Assembly (NCBI GenBank): GCA_031315865.1
Contig: JALDRJ010000002.1
Location: forward strand, 2,702,001-2,766,000
Direction: 5' to 3'
From: Nitrospirales bacterium
Lineage (GTDB): Bacteria > Nitrospirota > Nitrospiria > Nitrospirales > UBA8639
Length of the DNA: 64,000 nucleotides
The translations under genes were made by a program, and so were the position numbers. Below the pieces are notes generated by a model. The model ran no database searches, was not told where the DNA came from, and saw only the letters and a list, made by a program, of their open reading frames with translations. This document shows, piece by piece, positions 49,198 through 50,993 of the stretch; the stretch's first letter is position 1, and each line of letters starts with the position of its first letter.

Positions 49198-49635
49198 ATG
49201 AACTGGTCAACACTCTTGCGATTTCGGAAACAAGTTGAAGATGTCATTCGGGAAGAAGTGGTAATGGCCGAACTGGAGCAATCTCGAGAGGAAACCAAAA
49301 CGGCTCAACTACGGTCTGAAATGAATCGCCTATCGGAGGATATCGATCGGAGTCTTCGGACCGGAATCAGTACTATTTTCCTCGAACAACGATTCAGGTG
49401 GCTCGAAGAGAGTGGGAGTGCTTTGGAAGTTCAGGCGAACTGTATGCAAGAGTGGAATCGAAAACTGGCTGAATTACGAAAACGCCTCAAGGCCGCCTAT
49501 CACGCTCGACGAATCGTGGAAATCGTTATCGAGAAAAAAGAAACCGCCTACATGCGAAAACTGGCCAGGGATGAACAGATGCTGATGGAGGAGGTGACCG
49601 CGCATAAATATGCGGATGTGATGGTCAATGAATGA
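49198..49635 (+). CDS. fliJ: flagellar export protein FliJ
   Basis: Coiled-coil chaperone-like rod of the export ATPase, similar in place to the F1 gamma subunit. The 145 residues are almost wholly helix (LRFRKQVEDVIREEVVMAEL, and the AYHARRIVEIVIEKKETAYM helix near the C-terminus). Sequence identity in this family is low, so the call rests on fold character, length and the place just after fliI. It starts two bases after the fliI stop. Confidence 0.9.
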   Translation: MNWSTLLRFRKQVEDVIREEVVMAELEQSREETKTAQLRSEMNRLSEDIDRSLRTGISTIFLEQRFRWLEESGSALEVQANCMQEWNRKLAELRKRLKAAYHARRIVEIVIEKKETAYMRKLARDEQMLMEEVTAHKYADVMVNE

Positions 49636-49914
49636 CAGGGGAGGAGCCGAAGTGCGAGGAGGAAAAGATGTAGGGGTTCTCTGTGGCTATCCAAAACACG
49701 ACATGAGGAATAGGCATGAAGACATTTCAGGAACGCACAGGACAAGATCGTGTCAGGATCGATGTTGAACAGATCCGGCGTGAGTATCATCCTATGAGGT
49801 ATGGACGTTCGTCTTCTCGTACTCGTCCAAATGCTTTAAGGGCATGGTTCCCGAAGCATACGATGGACAATTTCAGGCTATGGCATGTATGGGAGAAGAT
49901 CAATGTTTTGTCTT

Positions 49915-50379
49915 GGCGACCGGCGGGGCTATCTGGCTGGCCATTCACGTTGGTGACGAACAAGAGTAGGCCACAGGAGTTCAAGAGAACCATGCAAAAT
50001 TCGCCTGGGCGACCAGCGGGGCTATCTGGCTGGCCATTCACGTTGGTGACGAACAAGAGCAGGCCACAGGAGTTCAAGAGAACCATGCAAAATTCGCCTG
50101 GGCGACCAGCGGGGCTATCTGGCTGGCCATTCACGTTGGTGACGAACAAGAGCAGGCCACAGGAGTTCAAGAGAACCATGCAAAATTCGCCTGGGCGACC
50201 AGCGGGGCTATCTGGCTGGCCATTCACGTTGGTGACGAACAAGAGCAGGCCACAGGAGTTCAAGAGAACCATGCAAAATTCGCCTGGGCGACCAGCGGGG
50301 CTATCTGGCTGGCCATTCACGTTGGTGACGAACAAGAGCAGGCCACAGGAGTTCAAGAGAACCATGCAAAATTCGCCCA
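49915..50379 (+). repeat. five-copy 93-bp tandem repeat between fliJ and motE
   Basis: Units begin at 49915, 50008, 50101, 50194 and 50287 with GGCGACC(A/G)GCGGGG and run to about 50379. Copies 2-4 look identical, copy 1 differs at two bases, and copy 5 diverges only in its last bases. The 93-bp period is 31 codons, so the motE reading frame stays open throughout; the opposite strand is open as well (49787-50365). Each unit has an ATG preceded by AGGAG at 12 bases and a GTTC-aaga-GAAC hairpin. Near-identity indicates recent expansion or gene conversion. Confidence 0.95.
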
Positions 50380-50993
50380 GTAGAACAATGTTGCCGCGTT
50401 TCCTGATTGTCCCGTGGTGGATGGTCTTTGTCGTGCTTGGGGCGACAGCGGTCGTATCGGTCTCGTACTCCGAAGGCGAAGAACCTCAAATTGCGGAGAA
50501 AACTTCTCAAGAAAAACAAGATGTTGAGGTTCATGAGCCAGATACTGCGATGACTGAGGAGGGATCGCTCATTCAACAATTACAACATCGGCTCAAAGAA
50601 TTAGATGAGCGGGAACAACGTTTGCAGCAAAAACAACAACGTATCGAAGGGTTACAACGTGATGTAGAAGACTTAGCTGCACGACAGGCCAAAGAAGCCG
50701 AACGTTTGCAGAAGAAAGCAGCCGAACTTGAGTCCAAGCGTCAGGGCAAAAAAAAGGATGATCCTTCCTTGAGACATTTGGTGAAAGTGTATGGCGCGAT
50801 GGACCCTGAAGAAGCGGCTTTGAGGATAGAAAAGATGGATGAGCATCTGGCATTGGAAATACTGTCAGGCATTAAAGATAAGAAGGCTGCCGTGATACTG
50901 GCAGGGGTTAATCCCCAAAAGGCTGCGTCGCTTTCCCAGGGATTGCGTCGGTTTAACGCCATACCGAAAGAGTCGAGTCAGAAACAACGATAA
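50364..50993 (+). CDS. MotE-like flagellar protein (MgtE-N-like C-terminal domain)
   Basis: A 209-residue protein in the place where MotE/YlxF-like proteins occur, between fliJ and fliK. A membrane helix (IVPWWMVFVVLGATAVVSVS, about residues 14-33) is followed by a periplasmic coiled coil (residues 68-130, HRLKELDEREQRLQQKQQRI) and an MgtE-N-like helical domain (HLVKVYGAMDPEEAALRIEK). MotE in other bacteria chaperones the stator MotC. I use ATG 50364, inside the last 93-bp repeat. The frame is open to ATG 49716, which has its own GAGGAA site, so a 425-residue form with five 31-residue repeats before the membrane helix is possible. Confidence 0.78.
   Translation: MQNSPSRTMLPRFLIVPWWMVFVVLGATAVVSVSYSEGEEPQIAEKTSQEKQDVEVHEPDTAMTEEGSLIQQLQHRLKELDEREQRLQQKQQRIEGLQRDVEDLAARQAKEAERLQKKAAELESKRQGKKKDDPSLRHLVKVYGAMDPEEAALRIEKMDEHLALEILSGIKDKKAAVILAGVNPQKAASLSQGLRRFNAIPKESSQKQR

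Follow-up and report, generated by a model that had tools for sequence, protein, structure and literature searches.

Genes and repeat units at the fliJ-motE junction

The window, which is the whole 64,000-nucleotide stretch of Nitrospirales DNA that was analysed, carries fliJ directly 5' of motE with a tandem repeat array between them. The features of this junction are as follows.

49198 to 49635, forward strand: fliJ, the upstream cistron (Pfam FliJ, E 4.4e-9), with orthologs at the matching place in relatives
49636 to 49914, forward strand: unique 279-bp stretch from fliJ to the array, with an ATG at 49716 that has a GAGGA Shine-Dalgarno and with non-coding-like codon usage
49915 to 50007, forward strand: repeat unit 1, 93 bp, two substitutions compared to the other units, AGGAG at 49975-49979 and ATG at 49992
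50008 to 50100, forward strand: repeat unit 2, ATG at 50085
50101 to 50193, forward strand: repeat unit 3, ATG at 50178
50194 to 50286, forward strand: repeat unit 4, ATG at 50271
50287 to 50377, forward strand: repeat unit 5, which terminates within codon 5 of motE; its AGGAG (50347-50351) and ATG (50364) are motE's own initiation site
50364 to 50993, forward strand: motE, 209 aa, of the E-ring family (MotE/FlgY/FlbB/YlxF), with a transmembrane helix, a long coiled coil and an MgtE_N-like head

FliJ also matched TIGR02473 (E 2.9e-10, under the cut-off of the model), and its C-terminus was equal in length to that in other genera. Downstream of motE, a 482-aa frame with no family match in the profile search was called fliK on position alone. 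MotE matched Pfam MgtE_N (E 8.8e-5, 23.4 bits, under the curated cut-off of 25.9) and the FlbB model (E 1.6e-5, also under the cut-off). The AlphaFold2 model of MotE (mean pLDDT 76) showed helices at residues 19-35 and 62-131, the second of them long, and a helical head at 134-199, and the best Foldseek match was FliF-YlxF 9a67_B (E 5.8e-5). The hydrophobic helix 19-35 is presumably a transmembrane segment. As modelled, the protein has the architecture of the E-ring family, i.e. an N-terminal transmembrane helix, a long coiled coil and a small helical head, and an N-terminal extension of it would be cytoplasmic. MotE is now grouped with the E-ring proteins FlgY and FlbB, whose genes often adjoin fliJ or fliK (PMC13023049); the term stator chaperone, used for it before, is an older label. 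In the window, too, motE adjoins fliJ, and its product combines a transmembrane helix and a coiled coil with a putatively MgtE_N-like head, as described for the family. The match of motE to all four sister genomes begins at ATG 50364, and since the orthologs begin there, MotE proper appears to start at this last ATG.

Tandem Repeats Finder showed a single tandem array in the 64-kb window, at 49915-50377, with a period of 93 bp, 5.0 copies, 99% matches and no indels. Copies 2-4 were mutually identical, copy 5 was the same across its 91 bases and copy 1 had two differences (98%). The 3' end of every unit was CAGGAGTTCAAGAGAACC ATG CAA AAT TCG CC, and the last copy contained the Shine-Dalgarno, the start codon and the first five codons (MQNSP) of motE. 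As the end of the unit is the motE initiation region, the array consists of copies of that region and a linker, with five start codons (49992, 50085, 50178, 50271 and 50364). A search of the 93-bp unit across the 3.78-Mb genome (main contig 3.77 Mb) gave no second locus. A dispersed or mobile repeat was ruled out, with no further copies in the genome or in plasmid records. A reverse-strand frame of 192 aa merely reads the repeats of the array. The stretch at 49636-49914 had no match in the four sister genomes.

Initiation, promoter and RNA signals

Almost all unit starts had Shine-Dalgarno energies between -6.8 and -8.4, compared to a mean of -2.9 for all ATGs of the window. The start regions were more easily opened than control positions on average, which was not so at every start. 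No sigma-70-like promoter was found in 49600-50420, where sites of the sigma-70 type were scored, and a duplicated promoter of this type is an unlikely identity for the unit. No terminator was found in the array. The array had no match in Rfam and a known RNA family was rejected. One weak hairpin followed directly on the ATG (z -3.4 relative to column shuffles); its pairs hardly vary and so gave no compensatory change or covariation, and a conserved RNA hairpin was not accepted.

Comparison of the junction between sister species

The comparison included five species of one genus of Nitrospirales (the window species, NPIRA01, NPIRA02, NPIRA04 and OFTM51), four of them draft MAGs. The junction carried three starts in NPIRA01, four in NPIRA02, six in NPIRA04, one in OFTM51 and five in the window species, with unit lengths of 89-93 bp across the genus. 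Counts of the core ATGCAAAATTCGCC in the five genus members were 5, 1, 2, 4 and 5, all at the motE junction, and none of 36 other relatives had it. Arrays with units of different sequence occupied this junction in three sister genomes, each from its own assembly, so an assembly artefact is an unlikely source of the array; the five copies are the count as assembled.

The gaps between fliJ and motE within the genus were 70, 358, 529, 731 and 885 nt. Elsewhere in the family, several genera have the two genes overlapping by about 8 nt or close together. A tree of FliI-FliJ-MotE put the window species at the base and OFTM51 on the following branch, with the three NPIRA species in one group (bootstrap 81-95, the basal node moderately supported). 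Given this order, an ancestral array that collapsed in OFTM51 fits best, with moderate support for the basal node, and the site of the array probably dates back to the origin of the genus.

An earlier note, made from the letters of the window, had described five near-identical 93-bp repeats with copies 2-4 identical, and both points agreed with Tandem Repeats Finder and with the comparison of copies. Its array start held as well, and its end at 50379 was placed two bases too far. The word young, which it had used for the array, suits the homogenised copies of the window genome only and does not suit the site. The copy number, which it had expected to vary, did so between species (1 to 6 starts in five congeneric species). 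The search of the unit in this genome and its relatives, which it had proposed, gave one locus here and sister arrays at the matching junction. What the note did not mention is that motE's own Shine-Dalgarno, start codon and first five codons recur in each unit.

Other observations were made at the same junction. In OFTM51, a 25-codon frame (L010:1440-1517) begins directly after the fliJ stop (TAGATG) and ends within the motE start, as if it coupled fliJ to motE. In NPIRA02, a dispersed repeat of about 550 bp lies between fliJ and the array (L009:2407-2997), with 55 matches in NPIRA02, 17 in NPIRA01, 9 in NPIRA04 and none in the window genome or OFTM51. As this repeat is there too, the junction seems to tolerate insertions. 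In another genus of the same family (L015, L016, L018, L019, L020 and L021), the junction has an unrelated gap of 193-239 nt, and in several of these the motE frame is also open back across the gap.

Reading frames through the array

The motE frame was open from ATG 49716 (GAGGA Shine-Dalgarno, -6.3 kcal/mol) to the stop at 50993, which gives 425 codons through the whole array. The open frame and the ribosome site had both been reported in the earlier note and were confirmed. A random tandem 93-mer of like composition was open in a given frame in 49% of cases and in at least one of three frames in 87%. The open motE frame by itself is therefore weak evidence of coding, since roughly every second repeat of this kind would have one by chance. 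For the upstream 66 codons together with one unit, 2.7% of random sequences remained open.

In the motE frame, the unit had a codon usage score of -0.22 bits per codon and resembled a wrong frame; for real 31-codon stretches, the 5th percentile was -0.11. The 66 codons upstream (49716-49914) scored -0.12 bits per codon, and fliJ, motE proper and fliI scored 0.20 to 0.22. The synonymous ratio in the motE frame between species was 1.02-1.04, i.e. no synonymous excess. In NPIRA01, NPIRA02 and NPIRA04, each upstream start opens a frame that a stop closes after 14-27 codons, and sister units of 89 or 92 bp shift the reading frame. A conserved repeat extension of MotE was rejected on the closed sister frames, the codon usage and the substitution pattern. 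The earlier note had suggested a 31-residue repeat array on the protein, which is thus not conserved, and its alternative of a repeat-rich leader inside the operon is the better reading.

For the window species itself, a MotE that is extended on its cytoplasmic side by functional 31-residue repeats, translated from 49716 or from the ATGs within the units, is very improbable. The 425-codon open frame, the good Shine-Dalgarno at 49716 and in every unit, a unit length divisible by three and the basic character of the extension, compatible with the cytoplasmic side, all suit such a product. However, the frames are closed in all sister arrays, codon usage is off-frame both in the units and in 49716-49914, the motE frame has no synonymous excess between species, the openness of the unit equals the chance expectation and motE orthologs start at 50364.

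A second frame outside that of motE, ATSGAIWLAIHVGDEQEQATGVQENHAKFAW (...YAKFAQAPAGT...), extends over 50008-50377. It had a coding-like codon score for one window unit (0.098) and a mild synonymous excess across species (1.28-1.38), and was nearly open across the NPIRA02 array. This frame was not accepted as coding, with stops in window copy 1 and in the arrays of NPIRA01, NPIRA02 and NPIRA04; the small synonymous excess leaves room for some coding there. It resembles the end of fliJ that overlaps motE in another genus (L013), from which it may have originated.

Conserved cores and divergent linkers

The ATG was retained in every unit. The conserved core continued beyond the initiation site into a GC-rich block (GGC-CCAGCGGG) after each internal ATG, and this block was missing after motE's own ATG. 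Units 4 and 5 of NPIRA04 had no differences in the 38 positions of core and Shine-Dalgarno and 33 differences in the 52 positions of the linker (63%; Fisher p 3e-11). The linkers of NPIRA04 were of two types, of which one groups with NPIRA01 and the other is nearer to NPIRA02; with this split in affinities, the unit lineages seem to be older than the NPIRA species. A neutral simulation of whole-unit turnover, with selection on the last unit only and conversion confined to cores left out, produced no pair like units 4 and 5 of NPIRA04 in 3,600 arrays. As this simple turnover failed to give identical cores beside 63%-different linkers, the cores look constrained. Two internal cores were degraded, ATGAAAAATCGCC in NPIRA01 and ATGAAAAAAACGCC in NPIRA04. 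Selection on the internal units is likely and not proven, because of these two degraded cores and because core-confined conversion was not part of the simulation.

Proposed origin and possible function of the array

The array is best explained by amplification, in tandem, of the region that initiates motE translation. The upstream copies would most likely be extra initiation sites and copy number would set the level; we hold this reading with about even confidence. Each unit of about 90 bp would comprise a Shine-Dalgarno, an ATG, CAAAATTCGCC, a short GC-rich block and then the linker. The comparison of species indicates that the array may have originated early in the genus, after the ancestral overlap of fliJ and motE was pulled apart, and that it has since probably been expanded, contracted and re-homogenised species by species. 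With the overlap lost, ribosomes that end fliJ would not be handed straight to motE, and inter-cistronic RNA of up to 885 nt would be left bare. Ribosomes may then load at each upstream copy, make a peptide of 14-27 residues in the sister species and terminate, which would keep ribosomes on the inter-cistronic RNA and feed motE initiation at a level following the number of copies. In other systems, short upstream frames have been proposed to deliver ribosomes (PMC12548453). In the window species, the copies are in frame and have no stop between starts, so ribosomes loaded upstream would continue into motE and yield minor forms of 240, 271, 302 and 333 residues (31, 62, 93 and 124 residues longer). 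This ribosome-loading role is inferred from the anatomy of the array. The fuller proposal of a selected initiation array, tunable by copy number, that carries translation across the widened gap and produces in the window species a ladder of E-ring forms in 31-residue steps, is tentative and rather unlikely to hold in all its parts. OFTM51, which manages with a single start, counts against an initiation array.

The serious rival is neutral tandem duplication, a distinctly possible history in which slippage or unequal exchange amplified the junction and the upstream copies do nothing. Since every copy ends in a full initiation site, any copy number would leave motE intact. The spread from 1 to 6 starts across species with one species without an extra copy, the freshly homogenised copies of the window, the decay of some cores and the lack of an Rfam match or of conserved RNA structure with covariation all agree with such drift, and core-confined conversion tracts could preserve the likeness of cores without function. 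It is harder to reconcile with identical cores beside 63%-different linkers in one array, which the simple neutral simulation did not reproduce, with the conservation also of a block outside the motE coding region, and with arrays kept in four of the five species, among them the lineage that is probably basal. The conserved core also exceeds the need of an initiation site (AGGAGT...ACTATGCAAAATTCGCCCAGGC.CCAGCGGG), which together with the weak hairpin after the ATG would suit binding sites for a regulator in RNA or DNA, e.g. a CsrA-type protein at GGA motifs or a small RNA on the core, the ATG being incidental. However, the pairs of the hairpin are near-invariant with no compensatory change, no known RNA family was matched and the ATG itself is preserved in every unit, and regulator sites are considered improbable.

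Comparison with known repeat systems

The closest known kinds of repeat are MIRUs and the promoter tandem repeats of mycobacteria. MIRUs are similar to the motE array in unit size and tandem form. They are short repeats at start codons inside operons, and their small frames can pass ribosomes to the next gene (PMC12548453). The motE array likewise stands inside an operon, with its tandem units at a start codon. However, MIRUs are at many loci and appear mobile, whereas the core of the motE array is at one locus in all five genus members and its unit copies the start of motE itself. MIRUs also overlap the next gene by 4 nt, whereas frames in the sister arrays end before the next ATG with no overlap and the window array has no stop before motE.

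Promoter tandem repeats or VNTRs of M. tuberculosis (lpdA, dop) lie directly upstream of their genes and vary in copy number, with changes in lpdA expression (PMC12817950). These are promoter elements before leaderless genes, whereas the motE array is intra-operon with no sigma-70-like promoter found, has a Shine-Dalgarno and an ATG in each unit and shows its copy variation between species. In Beggiatoaceae, TAACTGA heptamers are direct repeats just 5' of start codons with a proposed translational role (PMC4679880). These seven-base units are spread over many loci with few canonical ribosome sites, in contrast to the units of about 90 bp with good ribosome sites at one locus described here.

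No paper on tandem ribosome-binding-site arrays was found in the open-access literature, though this does not prove that there are none. Most of the repeat arrays known to tune bacterial genes are promoters or tracts by which a reading frame is turned on or off, and we know of no described E-ring family member with an array of initiation sites upstream. If the favoured reading is true, bacteria would have a further means of adjusting how much is made from a single cistron of an operon, namely tandem copies of the ribosome-binding and start site of that gene, retained across a genus with conserved cores and free linkers. For annotation, a long open frame over a repeat with a length that is a multiple of three may mimic a repeat protein, and sister species show otherwise.

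Tandem repeats were also present 3' of motE at L024 (99 bp, 3.6 copies), L027 (90 bp, 2.3 copies), L029 (90 bp, 3.0 copies) and L011 (129 bp, 2.0 copies), probably in or near fliK.
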